Part shown: positions 11,342-49,534 of the stretch, piece by piece
How positions within the stretch are numbered: the first letter of the stretch is position 1
Layout of the letters: each line of letters opens with the position of its first letter
NCBI GenBank assembly: GCA_902799045.1
Contig: CADBZH010000020.1
Location: 1-64,000 of the forward strand
DNA: 64,000 nucleotides
DNA from: an uncultured Eubacteriales bacterium
Lineage (GTDB): Bacteria; Bacillota; Clostridia; Christensenellales; Aristaeellaceae
Direction: 5' to 3'
Program-made: the position numbers and the translations under genes
The notes under the pieces: generated by a model
Told to the model about the DNA's origin: nothing
The model's database searches: none
Seen by the model: only the letters and a program-made list of their open reading frames with translations

Positions 11342-12184
11342 TCACACCTTCTCAAAATCGGGTCTCCAGGCCGCGAACTGCTTTAGCTGTTCGTCCGTGC
11401 GGTGGTAATAGCGAACGCCCTTGTCCAGCTGCGCAACGGCAGACATCTCTGCCTCCGTCAGCGTGAAGTCGAGGATATCGAGGTTGTCCCGGATGTGGTC
11501 CACGTTCCGGCTGCCGGGGATCACCGCGAAGCCCATCTGGGTGTGCCAGCGCAGGATGACCTGGGCCGGGGACTTGCCATACTTCGCGCCGAGTTCGGTG
11601 AAGACCGGCTCGTTGATCAGGCTCTTGTCGCCGTGTCCCAAGGGATACCAGCTCATCAGCTTGATGCCGTACTTGTCCAGCGTGACGCGAAGCTCCTTCT
11701 GGGTGTAATACGGATGCGCCTCCACCTGGATGAACTGGGGCGCGATCTCCCACTTCGTCTCCAGCTCCGCGATGTACCTGCCCTCGAAGTTGGAGATGCC
11801 GATGGCCTTCGCCTTGCCGTTCCTGTAGGCCTGCTCCAGCCGGCGATACCCGGCCAGCCAGTTCCCCGCGGGCTGGTGGATGTACAGCAGGTCCACATAA
11901 TCCACGCCCAGACGCTCCAGCGTCTCGTCCACCGCGTTGGGGTTTTCATACTCGCTGGGCCAGAGCTTCGTGGACAGGAAGATGTCCTCGCGCTTCACGC
12001 CGCTGGCCCTCATGCCGCGACCCACCGCCCGCTCGTTCACATAGGCGTTCGCCGTGTCCACCAGGGAATAGCCCATCTTCAGCGCCTCGCGCACGCTGTT
12101 ATCCGCGTCCGCCGGGGAGAGCATGAAGGTTCCGATGCCCACCACGGGGCACTTGGCGCCATTGTTCAAAACGATGTATTCCAT
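11342..12184 (-). CDS. Aldo/keto reductase
   Basis: 280 residues, normal for the family. The catalytic set is visible: SLVDTANAYVNERAVGRGM carries the Asp and Tyr, STKLWPSEYENP the Lys, and YIHQPAGN the His. The C-terminal NADPH-binding segment VIPGSRNVDHIRDN is also present. These enzymes fold as a TIM barrel and reduce aldehydes or ketones with NADPH. The ATG at 12184 has AAGGAGG seven nt upstream; a longer reading from 12232 lacks this. The TetR-like gene 37 nt downstream probably belongs to the same transcript. The substrate is not predictable. Confidence 0.9.
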   Translation of the reverse strand: MEYIVLNNGAKCPVVGIGTFMLSPADADNSVREALKMGYSLVDTANAYVNERAVGRGMRASGVKREDIFLSTKLWPSEYENPNAVDETLERLGVDYVDLLYIHQPAGNWLAGYRRLEQAYRNGKAKAIGISNFEGRYIAELETKWEIAPQFIQVEAHPYYTQKELRVTLDKYGIKLMSWYPLGHGDKSLINEPVFTELGAKYGKSPAQVILRWHTQMGFAVIPGSRNVDHIRDNLDILDFTLTEAEMSAVAQLDKGVRYYHRTDEQLKQFAAWRPDFEKV

Positions 12185-41853: not shown

Positions 41854-42393
41854 TTACTTCCGGGTTTCCCAGGCGTGCAGCGCAGTCTTGTTGATGTCCA
41901 GCAGGTGCGCCTTGCGGCCGGAGAAGGTCTTTTCCATGATCTTGTGGACCATGGCCTCCGGCACCACCGGGCTGACGCTCATCAGGGCGCCGAGCATCAC
42001 GGTGTTGGCCGTGCGGGCGTTGCCCAGCTGCATGGCGATGTCGTTGGCGGGGACGTAGTAGACGTTGATATCGTCCCGGGTCGCCTTCTGCTCGATCATC
42101 GAGCTGTTGACGAACAGGTTGCCGCCCGGCTTCACCAGCGATTCAAACTTGATCAGCGAGGGCAGGTTCATCACCACCACATCGTCGGCCTCATAGATCA
42201 GCGGGCAGCTGACCGGCTTTTCCGGGCTGATGACCACGGTGCAGTTGGCCGTGCCGCCGCGCATCTCCGGGCCGTAGGAGGGCAGCCACGTGGCGTTCAT
42301 GTCCGCGTACATGGCCGCGTAGGTCAGCATCTGGCCCATGGTCAGCACGCCCTGGCCGCCGGAACCGGCAAAAAACAGCTTTGTCGTCGCCAT
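41854..42393 (-). CDS. vorC: 2-oxoacid:ferredoxin oxidoreductase, gamma subunit
   Basis: 179 residues of the POR/KOR gamma domain: KLFFAGSGGQGVLTMGQMLT at the start, WLPSYGPEMRGGTANCTVVI in the centre and TVMLGALMSVSPVVPEAMVH towards the end. It completes the CoA-binding part of the enzyme. The ATG at 42393 has GGAGG seven nt upstream. It follows the beta subunit with the start and stop only 2 nt apart. The subunit set (D-B-A-C order) is that of the VOR-type enzymes annotated in Clostridia as acting on branched-chain 2-oxoacids. Confidence 0.93.
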   Translation of the reverse strand: MATTKLFFAGSGGQGVLTMGQMLTYAAMYADMNATWLPSYGPEMRGGTANCTVVISPEKPVSCPLIYEADDVVVMNLPSLIKFESLVKPGGNLFVNSSMIEQKATRDDINVYYVPANDIAMQLGNARTANTVMLGALMSVSPVVPEAMVHKIMEKTFSGRKAHLLDINKTALHAWETRK

Positions 42394-42395
42394 AA

Positions 42396-43136
42396 TCACA
42401 CCTCCGCTTCCCTGTAGACGCCCAGCGGATAGTAGGCCGCGACTTCCTCGCGCATCCGCTTCATGGCGTCGGCCGGGGTCAGGCCCCAGTTCGTCGGGCA
42501 GGTGGAGAGCAGTTCCACGAAGGAGAAGCCCTTGCCCGCCAGCTGCACCTCAAACGCCTTGTGCACGGCCTTCTTCGCCGCGCGGATGTGGGCCGGGGAA
42601 TCCAGCGCCACGCGCTCGATGTAGGCCGGGCCGTCCAGCGTCGCCAGCAGCTCGCAGATCTTCAGCGGCATGCCGGCCTGCTCGCGGGTGCGGCCGTCCA
42701 CCGACGTGGTGGAGCGCTGGCCGATCAGCGTGGTGGGGGCCATCTGGCCGCCGGTCATGCCGTAGATGCCGTTGTTGATGAAGAACGTGGAGAACTTCTC
42801 GCCCCTCGCCGCAGCGTGGACGATCTCGCCCATGCCGATGGAGGCCAGGTCGCCGTCGCCCTGATAGGTGAACACCACCTTGTCCGGATGGACGCGGCGG
42901 ATGCCGGAGGCCACTGCCGGGGCGCGCCCGTGGGCCGCCTCGCACATATCCACGTTCATAAACTGGTGCGCCACCACCGAGCAGCCGATGGGCGCGACGC
43001 CGAGCGTCTTGCCCAGCAGGCCCATCTCATCCAGCGTCTCCATGATGATGCGATGGGCCACGCCGTGGGTGCAGCCGGGGCAATAGCTGGTGCTGACGGG
43101 CAGCATGCCCTCTGTGACTTTGAATACAGGTTTCAT
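42396..43136 (-). CDS. vorA: 2-oxoacid:ferredoxin oxidoreductase, beta (thiamine diphosphate) subunit
   Basis: 246 residues. STSYCPGCTHGVAHRIIMET is the family start, GVAPIGCSVVAHQFMNVDMC follows, and the thiamine diphosphate motif GDGD...N is in VVFTYQGDGDLASIGMGEIV with its second half STFFINNGIYGMTGGQMAPT. No 4Fe-4S cysteines of its own, so electrons leave through the separate ferredoxin-like subunit. Starts at ATG 43136, overlapping the alpha subunit stop as ATGA. Confidence 0.95.
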   Translation of the reverse strand: MKPVFKVTEGMLPVSTSYCPGCTHGVAHRIIMETLDEMGLLGKTLGVAPIGCSVVAHQFMNVDMCEAAHGRAPAVASGIRRVHPDKVVFTYQGDGDLASIGMGEIVHAAARGEKFSTFFINNGIYGMTGGQMAPTTLIGQRSTTSVDGRTREQAGMPLKICELLATLDGPAYIERVALDSPAHIRAAKKAVHKAFEVQLAGKGFSFVELLSTCPTNWGLTPADAMKRMREEVAAYYPLGVYREAEV

Positions 43137-44209
43137 CGCACTTCCTCCAGTATCTTCTTCGTCTTTTCCACGACCTCCAGGCTCGTGGGCAGCATGCCGC
43201 CCACGCGGTGGATCAGCTTCACCGGCACGCGGCCCTTGACGCCCAGGTTGATGTCCTGCAGCATCTGGCCCATGCTCAGCTCCACGGAGATCACGGCCTT
43301 CGTCTTGTCGGAAATCGCGTCGAACGCCTTGTAGGGATAGGGCCACAGGCTGATCGGGCGGATCATGCCCGCCTTGATGCCCTGGGCCTCCAACAGCTCC
43401 ATGGCCTCCTTCGCCAGGCGCGCCATCGTGCCGAAGGCCACGAACACCACCTCGGCGTCCTCCAGGCCCTCGCACTCCACGCGCTCCAGCTCCTTCTCCA
43501 TGACGGCGTACTTTTCAAACAGGTGCTCCACGTGCTGCTCCAGCACCTCCGGCTGCAGCCGCAGGCTCTTCACCACGCTGCGGGTCCCCTTCTCGGAGCC
43601 GGAGAGGGCCCAGGGCTTGGCGGTGGAGATCTCCTCGCTGGTGAAGGCGTGCTTCGCCTCCGGCAGCGTCACGGGCTCCATCATCTGGCCCATCAGGCCG
43701 TCCGCCAGCACCATCACGGGGTTGCGATACCTGTCGGCGATCGCGGGGGCCTCGTAGAGGATGTCCACAGCCTCCTGGATCGACGCCGGTGCGAACACGG
43801 GGATCCTGTAATCGCCGTTGCCGCCGCCGCGGGTGACCTGGTTGTAGTCCGCCTGGCCCGGCTGGATGGAGCCGATGCCGGGGCCGCCGCGGGACACGTT
43901 CAGAAGCGTCACCGGCACCTCCGCGCCGCAGAGGAAGCTCATGCCCTCCTGCATCAGCGCGATGCCCGGCGAGGACGAGGAGATGAAGCCGTTGCCGCCC
44001 GCCGCGCCGCAGCCGTAGGCCATGTTGATGGCCCCCAGCTCGCTCTCGGCCTGCAGGAACGCGCCGCCCCGCTTGGGCAGCTCGCGGCTCATGAACTCCG
44101 GGATCTCGCTCTGGGGCGTGATGGGGTAGCCGAAATAGAAGCGCACGCCGCCGCGGATGACAGCCTCGGCGAAGGCCTCGTTGCCCTTCATCAATACCTT
44201 TTCGCTCAT
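43133..44209 (-). CDS. vorB: 2-oxoacid:ferredoxin oxidoreductase, alpha subunit (VorB type)
   Basis: 358 residues. The start EKVLMKGNEAFAEAVIRGGV with FYFGYPITPQSEIPEFMS and AESELGAINMAYGCGAAGGN is typical of the alpha subunit, and the whole N-terminus matches what is usually annotated as 3-methyl-2-oxobutanoate dehydrogenase subunit VorB in Clostridia. The C-terminal part (AEVVFVAFGTMARLAKEAME, GMIRPISLWPYPYKA) is the domain II/III unit. Assignment to branched-chain acids rests on this resemblance. 2-oxoglutarate or a broad range remains possible. Overlaps the ferredoxin subunit stop by 4 nt. Confidence 0.92.
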   Translation of the reverse strand: MSEKVLMKGNEAFAEAVIRGGVRFYFGYPITPQSEIPEFMSRELPKRGGAFLQAESELGAINMAYGCGAAGGNGFISSSSPGIALMQEGMSFLCGAEVPVTLLNVSRGGPGIGSIQPGQADYNQVTRGGGNGDYRIPVFAPASIQEAVDILYEAPAIADRYRNPVMVLADGLMGQMMEPVTLPEAKHAFTSEEISTAKPWALSGSEKGTRSVVKSLRLQPEVLEQHVEHLFEKYAVMEKELERVECEGLEDAEVVFVAFGTMARLAKEAMELLEAQGIKAGMIRPISLWPYPYKAFDAISDKTKAVISVELSMGQMLQDINLGVKGRVPVKLIHRVGGMLPTSLEVVEKTKKILEEVR

Positions 44210-44436
44210 GCTTCCCCCTCCTCCAGCTGGTAGATTTCGATCGCGCAGTCCGGGCAGACCGTGGCGCAGCTGGCGCAGCCGATGCACTGCGCCTGATCGA
44301 CGATCATCGCCGGACAGTAGCCCTTGGTGTTCACCTGGGTGTCCATCGCGATGATCTGCTTCGGGCAGAAGCTCTTGCACAGCTCGCAGCCCTTGCAGCG
44401 CTCGCGGTCAAAGATGACCTTGAACCTTCTTGCCAT
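44206..44436 (-). CDS. vorD: 2-oxoacid:ferredoxin oxidoreductase, ferredoxin-like delta subunit
   Basis: 76 residues with two 4Fe-4S motifs: CKGCELCKSFCP and CIGCASCATVCP. It passes electrons from the thiamine centre to free ferredoxin. The ATG at 44436 has AAGGAGG eight nt upstream. It is the first gene of the operon; I do not see a fully convincing promoter in the 100 nt before it. Confidence 0.95.
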   Translation of the reverse strand: MARRFKVIFDRERCKGCELCKSFCPKQIIAMDTQVNTKGYCPAMIVDQAQCIGCASCATVCPDCAIEIYQLEEGEA

Positions 44437-44532: not shown

Positions 44533-44649
44533 ACAATCCCTCCGCCGACTTCGTCGGCACCTCCCTTTACACAAGGGAGGCTATGGAATCCTGCCGCCCT
44601 GGCTCCCCTGTGCACGGGGAGCTGTCACCGCAGGTGACTGAAGGGTTGT
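44533..44649. repeat. Dispersed palindromic repeat, family A (copy 2)
   Basis: Edges ACAATCCCTC and GAAGGGTTGT; inside are GCCGAC / GTCGGC, CTCCCTT / AAGGGAG, CTCCCC / GGGGAG and GTCACC / GGTGAC stems. It fills most of the gap between vorD and the P-loop gene; nothing else is seen there. Confidence 0.75.
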
Positions 44650-44726: not shown

Positions 44727-45443
44727 TCACTTGTCGATCCAGCTCGGCCGCATGTACATCCCGAGCGGCAGCAGGTGTTTATACTTTCCTTCCACCTCGC
44801 TCGCGGGGACGATGGGCGCCGGGTAGGTGTCGCACCAGAGCAGCTTGCCGGTCTCCCGGCAGAGGACCTCGCACAGCCTGTGCCCCTTTTCGACGCAGGC
44901 GGCGTCGGTCTCGCGCAGCAGGTGGCAGTTGTTGATGACGCCGTCGATGCTCCGGCCGGTCTTCAGTTCAATGGCCCGCAGGTGCTCCAGCGCCCCTTCC
45001 AGCGTGCGGGTCTCGGGGCGGTTGGCGTTGACGACGATCAAAAACAGCGCGTCCTCCGGGGCGAAGTACTTGCCGAACTGGTTCAGCACCACCGCGCCGG
45101 AATCGTTGCCGCCCACGTCGACGATGACGCGGCAGTCCGCGTCCTCCAGCGGGGCGCGGATGTTCGCGCCCAGGGCAGGCAGCTCGGCGGTGATCTCGTG
45201 CTCGTAGGCGCTGCCGTAGACCCTGACGCCCGCGCTCTCCAGCATTTCCCGGCGCTCGCGGGAGCGGAAGTAGGGGTTGGCGATGTCCAGGTCCACCAGG
45301 GCCAGCCGCCGATACGGGCCGAAGCCGGAGCGGGCCAGCGCCATGGCGAGGCTCACGCAGAACTCCGTCTTGCCGCCGCCGTAGTGGCCGGTGACGACCA
45401 TCACCCGCCGGTCGGGTTCACGGATGCCGTTGAAGGGCTCCAT
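44727..45443 (-). CDS. P-loop ATPase of the ParA/MinD-like type, next to the oxidoreductase
   Basis: 238 residues. Deviant Walker A VVTGHYGGGKTEFCVSLAMA, then LALVDLDIANPYFRSRERRE, where the DLD-x-x-NPYFR segment is the switch region, VIVDVGGNDSGAVVLNQFGK as Walker B, and VNANRPETRTLEGALEHLRA. Relatives are often found beside 2-oxoacid ferredoxin oxidoreductase genes in Clostridia, and may help cluster or cofactor delivery, which is inference. It lies 290 nt upstream of vorD on the same strand, with a repeat between. Confidence 0.85.
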   Translation of the reverse strand: MEPFNGIREPDRRVMVVTGHYGGGKTEFCVSLAMALARSGFGPYRRLALVDLDIANPYFRSRERREMLESAGVRVYGSAYEHEITAELPALGANIRAPLEDADCRVIVDVGGNDSGAVVLNQFGKYFAPEDALFLIVVNANRPETRTLEGALEHLRAIELKTGRSIDGVINNCHLLRETDAACVEKGHRLCEVLCRETGKLLWCDTYPAPIVPASEVEGKYKHLLPLGMYMRPSWIDK

Positions 45444-45458: not shown

Positions 45459-46496
45459 TCAGTCCAAAAAGCCGGTCTCCCGGGGCTTGCCATCCTGCTT
45501 CACCCGCAGGATGGCCGGAAGGGCCGGGGCCGCGGCGTTGAAGCCGTCGCCGCCGGAGCGAAGATACACCGTGTCGGCATTCAGGCCCCTGAAATCGCAA
45601 TCGAAGCGCACGTTCTGCGCGCCGTTTTCCGGCAGGTGGTTTCGGATCTCATAGCCGTCCAGCGACCGCCAGCGCCCGAAGAGGGCGCGCCGGGCATAGT
45701 AGCCGCGCAGCTGACAGCCGCGCATCGCGTTGCCGCCCTGCCAGTCCTCCAGGAAGAAGCAGTCCCAGGAGAAGCCCAGCTTCGGCGCGGGATACGCGAT
45801 CGCCGCCAGCTTTTCCCAGCCGCCGTCCGCCGCCTTCACCCACTGCTCGTACACCGTCCGCCGACCCACGGTGCGGGCCTGGATGCGCATGGTGTACCAC
45901 ACGCCGGTCCGCCACGGATAGTCCGTCAGCACGTGCACGCCGCTGCCCTCGCCGCCGAACGGCTCCGCCACGGCGCCGCTTTTGGCGAACTCCACGGTGG
46001 GCCTGCCGCGATCGGTGTTCCACAGGGAGAGGATCGCGACGCCCTTGCCCCGACAGGCCTGAAAGCCCGCGTAGCCGGAGCCCGGGGCGATGCCCGTGAA
46101 GCCCTCGGCGCCGCTGTACCAGTTGTGCAGGCAATAGTAGGTGTTGTCCGCCCGCTGGACGCACCGCCACTGGCCCTCCACCGCGTCATAGAGCGCGCCG
46201 TCCGGCCGGTACAGGGTGGCCGACAGGTAGGGCGCGAAGCGGGGGTGAACGTCCGGCATCCACTGGGCCACGTAGACGATGGAGAGCTCATTGCAGGGAG
46301 CGGCCGTCCACTCCCCCGCGCCTTCCAGCGGATGGTTCGCCGCGTCCCCGCCGCAGATCCAGCCGATGAAGCGCCAGCCCGGGCGAACGGGAATCGCGGC
46401 GGGATGGCGGAAGCGGATCGCGCCGCTTGCGTCCTGCCTGGCCTCCACGGGATTGACGTCCCCGGAGCCGCCGTTGAGCTGATAGTAGATCGTCAA
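45459..46496 (-). CDS. DUF3472-type protein with an InlB-like N-terminal repeat
   Basis: 345 residues. Residues 1-75 resemble a single Listeria/Bacteroides InlB B-repeat (IYYQLNGGSGDVNP, PVRPGWRFIGWICGG, AQWMPDVHPR). Residues 90-290 match DUF3472: YYCLHNWYSGAEGFTGIAPG, FQACRGKGVAILSLWNTDRG, WRTGVWYTMRIQARTVGRRT and FFLEDWQGGNAMRGCQLRGY. The last 50 residues form another beta unit. DUF3472 proteins are usually exported, but no signal peptide is seen from the ATG at 46496. An alternative start in this frame is not visible upstream. It ends 15 nt before the P-loop ATPase. Function unknown. Confidence 0.75.
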   Translation of the reverse strand: MTIYYQLNGGSGDVNPVEARQDASGAIRFRHPAAIPVRPGWRFIGWICGGDAANHPLEGAGEWTAAPCNELSIVYVAQWMPDVHPRFAPYLSATLYRPDGALYDAVEGQWRCVQRADNTYYCLHNWYSGAEGFTGIAPGSGYAGFQACRGKGVAILSLWNTDRGRPTVEFAKSGAVAEPFGGEGSGVHVLTDYPWRTGVWYTMRIQARTVGRRTVYEQWVKAADGGWEKLAAIAYPAPKLGFSWDCFFLEDWQGGNAMRGCQLRGYYARRALFGRWRSLDGYEIRNHLPENGAQNVRFDCDFRGLNADTVYLRSGGDGFNAAAPALPAILRVKQDGKPRETGFLD

Positions 46497-46661: not shown

Positions 46662-46690
46662 TTGACATATGCCCGTCGGAGTGATAGAAT
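46662..46690 (+). promoter_or_regulatory. Promoter of the T-box transcript
   Basis: TTGACA (46662-46667), 17 nt, TAGAAT (46685-46690). Transcription from about 46697 would include the whole T-box leader. Confidence 0.8.
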
Positions 46691-46696
46691 AACCGC

Positions 46697-46996
46697 AATC
46701 GAATAATTGCCAAAGGCGATGACGAAGACGGCGGAGCCAATCGGTGCGCAGAGAGCCGGCCAGCTGCTGAAAGGCCGGACACAGGTTGCTCACAAGCCCA
46801 TCCCTTCCGAGCCGGAAGCGCGAAAGGCCTTCGAGGGCGAAGGTACTGAGTAGACGCTTCCCGTGAAAGCTGCGTAAAGGCTTAGGGCTTGATGGAGCCT
46901 GAAGGGGCACGGCAACGTGCAATTTGAGTGGTACCGCGGGTTGATTGCGACTCGTCTCAAGGAACGCGCAAGCGTTCGTTTGAGGCGGGTTTTTTT
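46697..46996 (+). ncRNA. T-box leader (uncharged tRNA sensor) with terminator
   Basis: The T-box sequence TGGTACCGCG is at 46929-46938. GATGACGAAGAC and CAGAGAGCC (about 46718-46757) are stem I landmarks. The antiterminator can form from TTTGAG (46924) with CTCAA (46956), and it competes with a terminator stem CTCGTCTCAAGGAACGC / GCGTTC-GTTTGAGGCGGG (46951-46988) with seven T. The variable base in the T-box is U, which pairs with a discriminator A, so serine, glycine-type U or tryptophan G tRNAs are unlikely. In the specifier region CAAGCCCATCCCTTCCGAGC (46792-46811) the codon could be ATC (Ile) or CCC (Pro); I cannot decide. It controls the gene at 47075. Confidence 0.93.
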
Positions 46997-47074
46997 CATG
47001 CGACCGCTTCGCCCCTGTCACGGAGGAATGATTCGATTGACCCCGCACCCACTGAATCGAGGAGGTAGTTTCCA

Positions 47075-49374
47075 ATGAACATGACGGACACCAAGGGCAT
47101 GCTCTTTGAGGTCGGCACCCGAATCCGCGCCCTGCGCGAGATCGCCGGCTACAGCGTGGTCTACATGGCGGACCAGACCAAGCTGGACGTGGAGACCTAC
47201 ATGGATTATGAGGCCGGCAAGGCCGACCTGCCCTTTACCTTTATCCACAACTGCGCCCGCATCTTCGGCGTGGACATCACCGACCTGATTGAGGGCCGCA
47301 GCGCCAACCTGCGCTCCTACACTGTCACCCGCAAGGGCGAGGCCACCATCACCGCCCGCGAGGAGGGCATCGAGATCAGCAACCTGGCGCCGCTGTTCTC
47401 CGGAAAGATCGCCGAGCCCTTCTGGGTCACCTACAGCTATTCCGAGGAGCTGCAGAACCAGCCCATCCACACCCACGCCCACCCCGGCCAGGAATTCGAC
47501 CTGATCCTCTCCGGCGAACTGCTGGTGCGCATCGGCGACCACGTGGAGCACCTCAAAGAGGGCGACAGCATCTACTACGACTCCTCCACCCCCCACGGCG
47601 AGATCGCCACCGGCGGCAGGGACTGCACCTTCGTGGCCGTGGTGCTGCCCGGCGAGGAGACCGAGCAGGAGAAGCTGGTGGAGGCGGTCATGCCCGTGCG
47701 CCTGCCGAAGCAGCACATGGTGTACGACGAGTTCGTGGAGCTGGACGAGGACGGCGAGGGCCACCTGCTGCACATCGACTTCCCGAATCGCGAGAACTTC
47801 AACTTCGCCTTCGACATCGTGGACAGGCTGGCCGAGCGCAAGCCCGACAAGCTGGCGATGCTGCACGTGGACCGCTACATGAACGAGCAGCGCTTCACCT
47901 TCGAGGACATCAGCCGCAAGTCCAACCGCGCCGCCAACTACTTCAAGGCCCTGGGCATCAAAAAGGGCGACCGGGTGATGCTGGTGCTGCGCCGCAACTG
48001 GCAGTTCTGGGTGGTGATGATGGCGCTGCACAAGCTGGGCGCGGTGGCCATCCCCGCCACGGACCAGCTGCTGAAGAAGGACTATGAATACCGCTTTGAG
48101 ACCGCGGGCGTGACCGCCATCTGCATGACCGCCGACAGCGATGGCGCGGTCCACGCGGAGGAGGCCTTCGAGACCTGCCCCTACGTGACGACCCGCATCC
48201 TCTGCGGCGGCAAGCGGGACGGCTGGCGCGATTTCGACGAGGAATACCTGCGCTATCGCTCCACGTTCGCGCGCACCGAGGAATCCCCGAAGGGCAACGA
48301 CCCGATGGTGATGTTCTTCTCCTCCGGCACCACCGGCTATCCGAAGCTGGCGATGCACAACCACATGTACCCGCTGGGCCACTTCATCACGGCCCACTAC
48401 TGGCACTGCGTGGAGCCGGACGGCCTGCACTTCACCATCAGCGACACCGGCTGGGGCAAGGCGCTGTGGGGCAAGCTCTACGGGCAATGGATGAACGAGT
48501 GCGCCGTGTTCGTGTATGACTTCGACCGCTTCAACGCCCACGACATCCTGCCGATGTTCGCTCGGTACAACATCACCACCTTCTGCGCCCCGCCGACCAT
48601 GTACCGCTTCCTGATCCGCGAGGACATCTCGAAGTACGACCTGTCGAGCATCCACTGCGCCTGCACCGCCGGCGAGGCCCTGAACCCCGAGGTGTTCAAC
48701 CTCTTCAAGAAGATCACGGGTCTGTCCATCATGGAGGCCTTCGGCCAGACCGAGACCACGCTGGTGCTGGGCAACTTCGCGGGCACCACGCCGAAGATTG
48801 GCTCCATGGGCAAGCCCAGCCCGATGTTCGACGTGGACCTGGTGGACGCCAACGGCAATCCCGTCAAGGCCGGCGAGCCGGGCGAGATCGTCATTCGCAC
48901 GGACAGGGAGATCCCCTGCGGCCTGTTCATGGGCTACTACGGCAACCAGGAGGCCACCGACACCGTGTGGCACGACGGCCTGTACCACACCCGCGACATG
49001 GCCTGGCGCGATGAGGACGGCTACTACTGGTACGTCAGCCGCACCGACGACGTGATCAAGTCCTCCGGCTACCGCATCGGGCCGTTCGAGATCGAGAGCG
49101 TCATCATGGAGCTGCCCTACGTGCTGGAGTGCGGCGTGAGCTGCCCTACGTGCTGGAGTGCGGCGTATCCGCCTCGCCGGACGAGATCCGCGGACAGGTG
49201 GTCAAGGCGTCCATCGTGCTCACCAAGGGCATCGAGGGCACCGAGGAACTCAAGAAGGACATCCAGAACTACGTCAAGAAGCGAACTGCGCCCTACAAGT
49301 ATCCCCGCATCGTGGTGTTCCGCGACGAGCTGCCCAAGACCATCAGCGGCAAGATCCAGAGAAACAAGCTGTAA
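47075..49374 (+). CDS. Fusion of XRE-type HTH, cupin and acyl-CoA synthetase (AMP-forming); frame broken by a 29-bp tandem duplication
   Basis: Residues 10-65 form an XRE-like HTH ([31 protein letters not shown]). Residues 110-205 form a cupin ([35 protein letters not shown]). Residues 245 to the end form the ANL synthetase: [16 protein letters not shown] is the phosphate loop, [14 protein letters not shown] and [10 protein letters not shown] follow, and [20 protein letters not shown] is the hinge. At 49109-49166 a 29-bp unit occurs twice. With one copy removed the frame runs on through [20 protein letters not shown] to the catalytic lysine [11 protein letters not shown] and TAA at 49374. As read, translation goes out of phase and ends at 49525, losing the C-terminal domain. 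It is controlled by the T-box leader. A carboxylic acid substrate is expected, identity unknown. Confidence 0.9.
49109..49166. repeat. Exact 29-bp tandem duplication inside the acyl-CoA synthetase frame
   Basis: The unit begins GAGCTGCCCTACGTG and ends GCGGCGT; both copies are identical (49109-49137 and 49138-49166). 29 is not a multiple of three, so the reading frame shifts. A perfect copy suggests a recent replication slip or an assembly error. Confidence 0.95.
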
Positions 49375-49384
49375 GCCAAGTTCG

Positions 49385-49501
49385 ACAACCCCTCAGTCTG
49401 CTGCGCAGACAGCTCCCCTTACACAGGGGAGCCCATCGGGAAATCGCGTCCAAAGCCTCCCTTGTGTAAAGGGAGGCGGCCCGCATGGCCGGAGGGATTG
49501 T
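49385..49501. repeat. Dispersed palindromic repeat, family A (copy 3)
   Basis: Edges ACAACCCCTC and GAGGGATTGT are near-perfect inverted repeats. Inside are GTCTGC / GCAGAC, CTCCCCT / AGGGGAG and GCCTCCCTT / AAGGGAGGC stems. It lies directly after the synthetase gene and may stop transcription. Confidence 0.8.
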
Positions 49502-49534
49502 AGTTGCGCAACAAATCCTATATGAGGTATCCAT

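Follow-up and report, generated by a model that had tools for sequence, protein, structure and literature searches.

The isoacid carboxylation of rumen anaerobes (Allison, Robinson and others) is known as physiology. Synthesis of isoleucine from 2-methylbutyrate and of valine from isobutyrate is reported as established in the rumen (accessible part of PMC7356843, citing papers of 1969 and 1971), and rumen methanogens use 2-methylbutyrate for isoleucine and isovalerate for leucine (accessible part of PMC10658910). The reverse reaction by ferredoxin oxidoreductase is described, in the accessible part of a 2020 paper, as theoretically possible and not proven yet (PMC7709123). The rumen isoacid-synthesis literature examined names, in its accessible parts, no bacterial genes for the route. 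The locus described here is predicted to serve the same two conversions; what differs is that it supplies proposed genes, gene clusters and a control switch for them. This switch is a T-box leader placed before a gene that fuses helix-turn-helix (HTH), cupin and acyl-CoA synthetase domains. The main texts of two T-box surveys (PMC2494555, PMC3766115), in their accessible parts, have no words beginning with CoA; one of them is also without the word ferredoxin and the other without oxidoreductase. The literature searched, whose coverage of the relevant papers is incomplete, holds no recognised description of a T-box before such a fusion. Both the chemistry and this kind of switch are already known; the assembled gene system, its isoleucine/valine paralogue split and the fusion are undescribed as far as these searches reach.

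The closest solved relative of the synthetase part is PDB entry 3etc (E 6.8e-158), which we take to be MacsMa, the medium-chain acyl-CoA synthetase of Methanosarcina acetivorans. The two proteins have in common the ligase domain over 450 residues, six acyl-pocket residues and a glycine between two of these (residue 461 of the window protein), whereas the aligned 3etc chain lacks the HTH-cupin part; we know of no T-box for MacsMa. Its preferred substrate is 2-methylbutyrate (accessible part of PMC10455477).

The window is a stretch of 64,000 nucleotides from an uncultured Eubacteriales bacterium of the Aristaeellaceae (assembly GCA_902799045.1, contig CADBZH010000020.1, positions 1 to 64,000). 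The initial annotation had read in it a T-box directly before the fusion gene and a VorDBAC-type 2-oxoacid:ferredoxin oxidoreductase ~2 kb away on the other strand, and both are confirmed (Table 1). The vorDBAC genes lie ~2.3 kb from the T-box in divergent orientation, with the ATPase-like and DUF3472 genes between them; their assignment follows from a VorB above its cut-off and from the adjoining position of all four subunits. A relative of the ATPase-like protein is CbiA/ParA-like, below cut-off.

Table 1. Features of the fusion gene, its leader and the neighbouring vor operon (positions in the window).
Feature	Position	Strand	Remarks
VorC, gamma subunit	41854..42393	-	Pfam; TIGR02175 88.1 bits, cut-off 81.1
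VorA, TPP-binding subunit	42396..43136	-	Pfam domain; under NCBIfam model cut-offs
VorB	43133..44209	-	NF005507 472.7 bits, cut-off 399
VorD, ferredoxin-like subunit	44206..44436	-	two cysteine clusters in reading frame
P-loop ATPase-like gene	44727..45443	-	travels with vor; no Pfam match on window protein
DUF3472 gene	45459..46496		between ATPase-like gene and leader
Promoter-like site TTGACA-17-TAGAAT	46662..46690	+	11/12 consensus matches, consensus match only; precedes leader
T-box leader (RF00230)	46710..46962	+	covariance-model match over full model; same place in genome scan
5' helix strand GAAG beside specifier	46724..46727	+	alignments; covariation in relatives
Specifier codon ATC (isoleucine)	46800..46802	+	covariance alignment, relatives' leaders; followed by one base and CTTC
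3' helix strand CTTC beside specifier	46804..46807	+	one base after codon ATC
T-box sequence TGGTACCGCGG in antiterminator	46929..46939	+	sequence and covariance alignment
Intrinsic-terminator-like hairpin and T run	46949..46996	+	-27.5 kcal/mol, z -6.5 for 46949-46991; alternative to antiterminator
HTH-cupin-acyl-CoA synthetase fusion gene	47075..49374	+	ORF as assembled ends at 49525
XRE-type helix-turn-helix	47108..47296	+	~residues 12-74; HTH_31 26.2 bits, cut-off 27; predicted fold
Cupin domain (Cupin_2)	47468..47641	+	residues 132-189; invariant H136, E140, H174
AMP-binding acyl-CoA synthetase core	47825..48940	+	residues 251-622; Gly461 codon 48455-48457
Perfect 29-bp tandem duplication	49109..49166	+	copies 49109-49137 and 49138-49166; shifts reading frame
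AMP-binding_C domain of fusion gene	49141..49374	+	out of frame

In a permissive covariance-model scan the leader matches RF00230 with 60.6 bits (E 8.2e-13, model positions 1-219). This is below the Rfam gathering score of 93, and the default Rfam scan of the window therefore lists no T-box. Some orthologous leaders exceed the gathering score (L040 100.6, L045 97.5, L043 96.4 and L028 95.6 bits), and all 12 related loci tested have an RF00230 match before the fusion gene, at 53.6 to 100.6 bits. The whole genome of the window has 15 T-box matches in the Rfam scan. The leader shares with the isoleucine-class leaders of ileS the specifier codon, the T-box sequence and the competing antiterminator and terminator. 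It differs from them in preceding an acyl-CoA synthetase fusion, in its score under the gathering cut-off and in a specifier loop that shows neither of the usual motifs, AGUA and GAA, in recognisable form. Folding of the whole leader is more stable than that of shuffled sequences (z -2.8); taken alone, neither the antiterminator fragment (-12.2, z -0.4) nor the stem I fragment (z +1.1) does better than shuffles, and a simple terminator scan lists none at the hairpin.

The specifier is ATC in the alignments both of the window leader and of four same-genus copies. The automatic rule misreads the window leader (CCA), and its ATC reading rests on the alignments, where ATC is constant among relatives and the flanking bases vary; second paralogues have GTA, GTC or GTG at the same codon place. 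The adjacent helix covaries among the 126 unique leaders readable by pattern (GAAG:CTTC in 103, GGAG:CTCC in 14, GAGG:CCTC in 3, other in 6); note that the pattern demands a pyrimidine-rich 3' strand and leaves free which pairs go together. One of the 126 reads ATG (L132) and precedes neither of the two fusion genes of that locus. Pattern reading is imperfect, with 11 of 80 primary leaders unread and 2 misread, 8 unread in the full-length set and, in the family sample, L056 misread and L084 unread; such leaders were read by eye from their sequences, and the T-box of L124 was found by Rfam. The rule was checked on eight T-boxes before presumed aminoacyl-tRNA synthetase genes, whose identity was judged from the gene starts. 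It agrees for ValS (GTC), PheS (TTC), MetG (ATG), LeuS (CTC) and SerS (TCC); the IleS T-box reads ATC by eye and GTA by pattern, that of HisS reads GAC by the rule, and that of AlaS is unreadable by it. The T-box of L052 reads GTC.

The HTH, cupin and synthetase domains of the initial annotation stand. As assembled, the ORF runs to 49525 and codes for 816 aa, instead of ending at 49374 as in that annotation; its frame is shifted after the first repeat copy of the tandem duplication, which puts the AMP-binding_C domain out of frame. The gene could consequently be a decaying pseudogene in this strain, leaving the window itself without a working system: the duplication is perfect, and in enzymes of this class the displaced domain carries a catalytic lysine. 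We consider this unlikely, for both the leader and the remainder of the gene are conserved, each of the four same-genus copies fetched is intact at 756 aa, and assembly errors can also produce short exact tandem duplications. A repeated intergenic element flanks the region (44560-44649 and 49385-49476, in opposite orientation), with arms 86% and 96% complementary.

The HTH-cupin part has known counterparts in the epoxidase HppE and the regulator 1y9q; both combine an HTH with a cupin, and neither has a synthetase attached. The predicted model of residues 1-240 (mean pLDDT 87, pTM 0.53) finds these two as best structural matches (E 1.1e-13 each). Over the whole chain they fit poorly (TM 0.33-0.39, rmsd 14-17, identity 17-20%), so that the domains agree with HppE and 1y9q and their arrangement does not. 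In a profile search with the amino-terminal part, 1y9q comes out on top (E 1.3e-7) and HppE in fourth place. All of 104 proteins share H136, E140 and H174, in an H-x3-E ... H pattern that we take to resemble HppE, while the presumed DNA-facing positions vary. Other genomes have adjoining but separate HTH-cupin and ligase genes at six loci, of which one is in the genus of the window; no T-box is seen at the six. The genome of the window has a further such pair on contig 45 (L067:9501-11757), also with no T-box seen, whose ligase has alanine at the pocket place that marks the valine types described below. From these separate neighbours, sequence comparison suggests that the fusion probably arose by joining the enzyme with its own regulator, and that once separate protein most likely survives in the HTH-cupin part as a remnant sensing a ligand or a metal.

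A scan of genome contigs returned at least 593 relatives, from which 80 loci were kept; all counts for kept loci, here and below, are among the matches listed. Every title of the 80 is a MAG or uncultured, and 35 name a ruminant gut site. One contig is cut, and a T-box precedes 74 of the 79 evaluable primary fusion genes. The specifier check proposed with the initial annotation returned ATC for the window and for 61 of these 74 T-boxes; the other 13 are GTA, GTC or GTG (valine). For the remaining five primary genes of the listed set no T-box is found, Rfam included, which counts against the main reading, as does a fusion gene without T-box in the family sample (L027). The 103 full-length fusion genes of the listed loci (only proteins of 700 aa or more were counted) divide into 55 with ATC, 35 with GTN, 12 with none and 1 cut, and 7 of the 12 follow another fusion gene as second copies. 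Upstream of position 9001 in L155, a fusion gene lacking a T-box is preceded by a short reading frame and then, by eye, a hairpin-like stretch and a T run, possibly a leader-peptide attenuator.

Two full-length fusions are present in 28 of the 80 listed loci, in 22 of them as one ATC and one GTN gene, and 21 of these 22 have vor. VorB is found in 38 listed loci (35 with ATC, 2 with GTN, 1 with no T-box), in 35 of the 38 on the strand of the fusion gene. An aminotransferase match is found in 24, all of them with VorB. By their gene content, these 24 loci with fusion, vorDBAC and aminotransferase carry the whole predicted acid-to-amino-acid route in one cluster. A frequent order in the listed loci is isoleucine-type fusion, valine-type fusion, ATPase, vorDBAC and aminotransferase, the latter sometimes before the ATPase. 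The branched-chain aminotransferase of one tested cluster exceeds its cut-offs (NF009897, 486 versus 307; TIGR01123, 401 versus 250). The main reading is weakened by the other 42 listed loci, in whose fetched stretch vor does not appear, for some of them because the contig ends, and by the window itself, in which the fusion gene is frame-shifted and no T-box is seen on the divergent vor. One genome has a T-box of unreadable specifier directly before its ATPase-vor operon (L046 at 10154).

Co-occurrence of the fusion with Vor, a check proposed with the initial annotation, extends beyond the clusters. In a family sample of 120 genomes, 37 code for the fusion in one open frame, and VorB is present in 36 of these 37 versus 38 of the 83 others, kinship ignored. 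VorB lies within 7 kb of the fusion gene, by its coordinates, in 18 of the 37, once only as a fragment. With 118 of the 120 genomes grouped into genera, Vor occurs in 14 of 14 fusion genera versus 19 of 36 others (p 0.002). IlvC and IlvD of the classical route show the opposite trend: IlvC is over cut-off in 2 of 37 fusion genomes versus 39 of 83 others and IlvD in 3 of 37 versus 37 of 83, in the same sample with kinship ignored. By genus, IlvC is lacking in 12 of 14 fusion genera versus 21 of 36 others (p 0.10), a weak contrast that counts against the main reading. In the window's genus, the fusion, VorB and a branched-chain aminotransferase are present in each of the five genomes; neither IlvC nor IlvD was found in any of the five. 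Acetolactate synthase IlvB is present in all five and is counted against the main reading; IlvB alone cannot complete the classical isoleucine route.

The substrate is suggested by the pocket. The six MacsMa residues, presumably those of Meng 2010, were located on the alignment of the window protein with 3etc; the window protein retains all six, as does each of the 91 proteins whose specifier was read. Residue 461 follows the specifier: it is glycine in 56 of 56 ATC proteins and alanine in 35 of 35 GTN proteins. The loci of the family sample, which overlap slightly with the 91-protein set, agree (29 ATC with Gly and 14 GTN with Ala, the latter joined by L056 and L084 on reading by eye), and on recheck each of 17 loci with Ala461 is GTN. 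In the tree of fusion proteins the valine types form one clade of 33, together with 7 copies without T-box, and a separate pair (L136, L138) beside the isoleucine-type sister L095, which amounts to at least two isoleucine/valine changes in an unrooted tree. With its extra methyl group, Ala461 would give a pocket better fitted to isobutyrate, the smaller acid. The initial proposal that the synthetase activates a short or branched acid gains support by homology: of the closest characterised relatives, MacsMa prefers 2-methylbutyrate and MbcS uses 2-methylbutyrate and isobutyrate.

MbcS raises another explanation. It is the best NCBIfam match of the window synthetase (NF047394), at 317.4 bits on a 688-aa in-frame piece versus a curated cut-off of 850, and the NF047394 model has no HTH-cupin part. 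The Staphylococcus aureus enzyme takes 2-methylbutyrate and isobutyrate and serves branched fatty acid synthesis (accessible part of PMC10026030). The fusion synthetase could likewise make branched primers for membrane fatty acids, the T-box switching it on when 2-methylbutyryl-CoA derived from isoleucine is missing, given that isoleucine shortage would limit this primer too. Such a role is improbable: the MbcS score falls far short, and the clusters with vorDBAC and branched-chain aminotransferase, as well as the presence of Vor in nearly every fusion genome, would be left unexplained.

The preferred reading, to which we assign a probability of roughly 0.85, is that isoleucine starvation directs 2-methylbutyrate through activation, carboxylation by Vor and transamination to isoleucine. 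In isoleucine shortage, uncharged tRNA-Ile would base-pair at both the T-box and the ATC specifier; with no terminator formed, the fusion gene would be transcribed. The synthetase domain would convert 2-methylbutyrate, ATP and CoA to 2-methylbutyryl-CoA, VorDBAC working reductively with reduced ferredoxin and CO2 would yield 3-methyl-2-oxopentanoate, and the branched-chain aminotransferase would turn this into isoleucine. In relatives, the paralogue under a valine T-box would lead from isobutyrate to valine by the same steps. We infer the substrates, the direction of Vor and the regulation in vivo from what the sequences hold, namely the T-box, its specifier, the paralogue split, the clusters, the pattern at residue 461 and the IlvC and IlvD not found. 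The initial idea of a starvation-driven synthesis of amino acids from carboxylic acids is in this way supported and, by comparison of loci, sharpened to isoleucine and, in addition, valine. Fatty-acid priming and amino-acid breakdown are ranked lower. Breakdown, in which Vor would oxidise the 2-oxoacid, as it does in amino-acid fermenters, and the synthetase would run backwards or recycle the acid, is highly improbable, because a T-box turns genes on at amino acid scarcity, the wrong sign for breakdown, AMP-forming synthetases make ATP from acyl-CoA poorly, and IlvC and IlvD are not found in the five genomes of the genus.

Other T-box genes were observed in the same genomes. On contig 49 of the window genome (L070), a T-box with CTC (leucine) is followed by a LeuA-like gene and a TIM-barrel-AMP-ligase fusion, and in relatives a CTC T-box and the same two genes stand beside valine-type fusions (L080:8101-12035). 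LeuA-like genes occur in 22 and the TIM-barrel ligase in 21 of the 80 listed loci; the pair is a candidate leucine arm. A TIM-barrel-AMP-ligase fusion in L082 is preceded by a T-box at 11435 whose specifier is perhaps TGG (tryptophan). T-boxes with TAC (tyrosine) precede an acyl-CoA ligase and an aminotransferase-like gene, and a sodium:solute symporter has a T-box whose specifier is unclear (L066:7087-8949, on contig 20 at ~72.8 kb, beyond the window; L069; L068); these genes could serve synthesis of tyrosine from 4-hydroxyphenylacetate. IorA matches are found in all five genomes of the genus, over cut-off in four. Tyrosine by the same logic is weak because a TyrA-type dehydrogenase is present in four of the five.

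A wider picture, put forward tentatively and somewhat doubtful, is that these gut Clostridia have a general T-box-controlled acid-to-amino-acid economy with isoleucine, valine, leucine and tyrosine-type arms, in which the cupin His-Glu-His triad would be a built-in sensor that brings RNA and protein control together on one enzyme. The isoleucine/valine arm would consist of the fused HTH-cupin synthetases, the leucine arm of the LeuA-like enzyme with the TIM-barrel-synthetase fusion under leucine T-boxes, and the tyrosine-type arm of the acyl-CoA ligase behind its TAC T-box.

Across many uncultured Clostridia, the analysis names a gene for acid activation together with its partner genes, the switch that precedes it and a candidate residue for its specificity. 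If the main reading is true, isoacid use would be readable from the genome, T-boxes would report substrate chemistry, and use of 2-methylbutyrate versus isobutyrate would come down to a one-residue Gly/Ala test. In a bacterium with no detected IlvC and IlvD, a switch for isoleucine shortage would stand before the predicted first step that rebuilds isoleucine from a branched waste acid.
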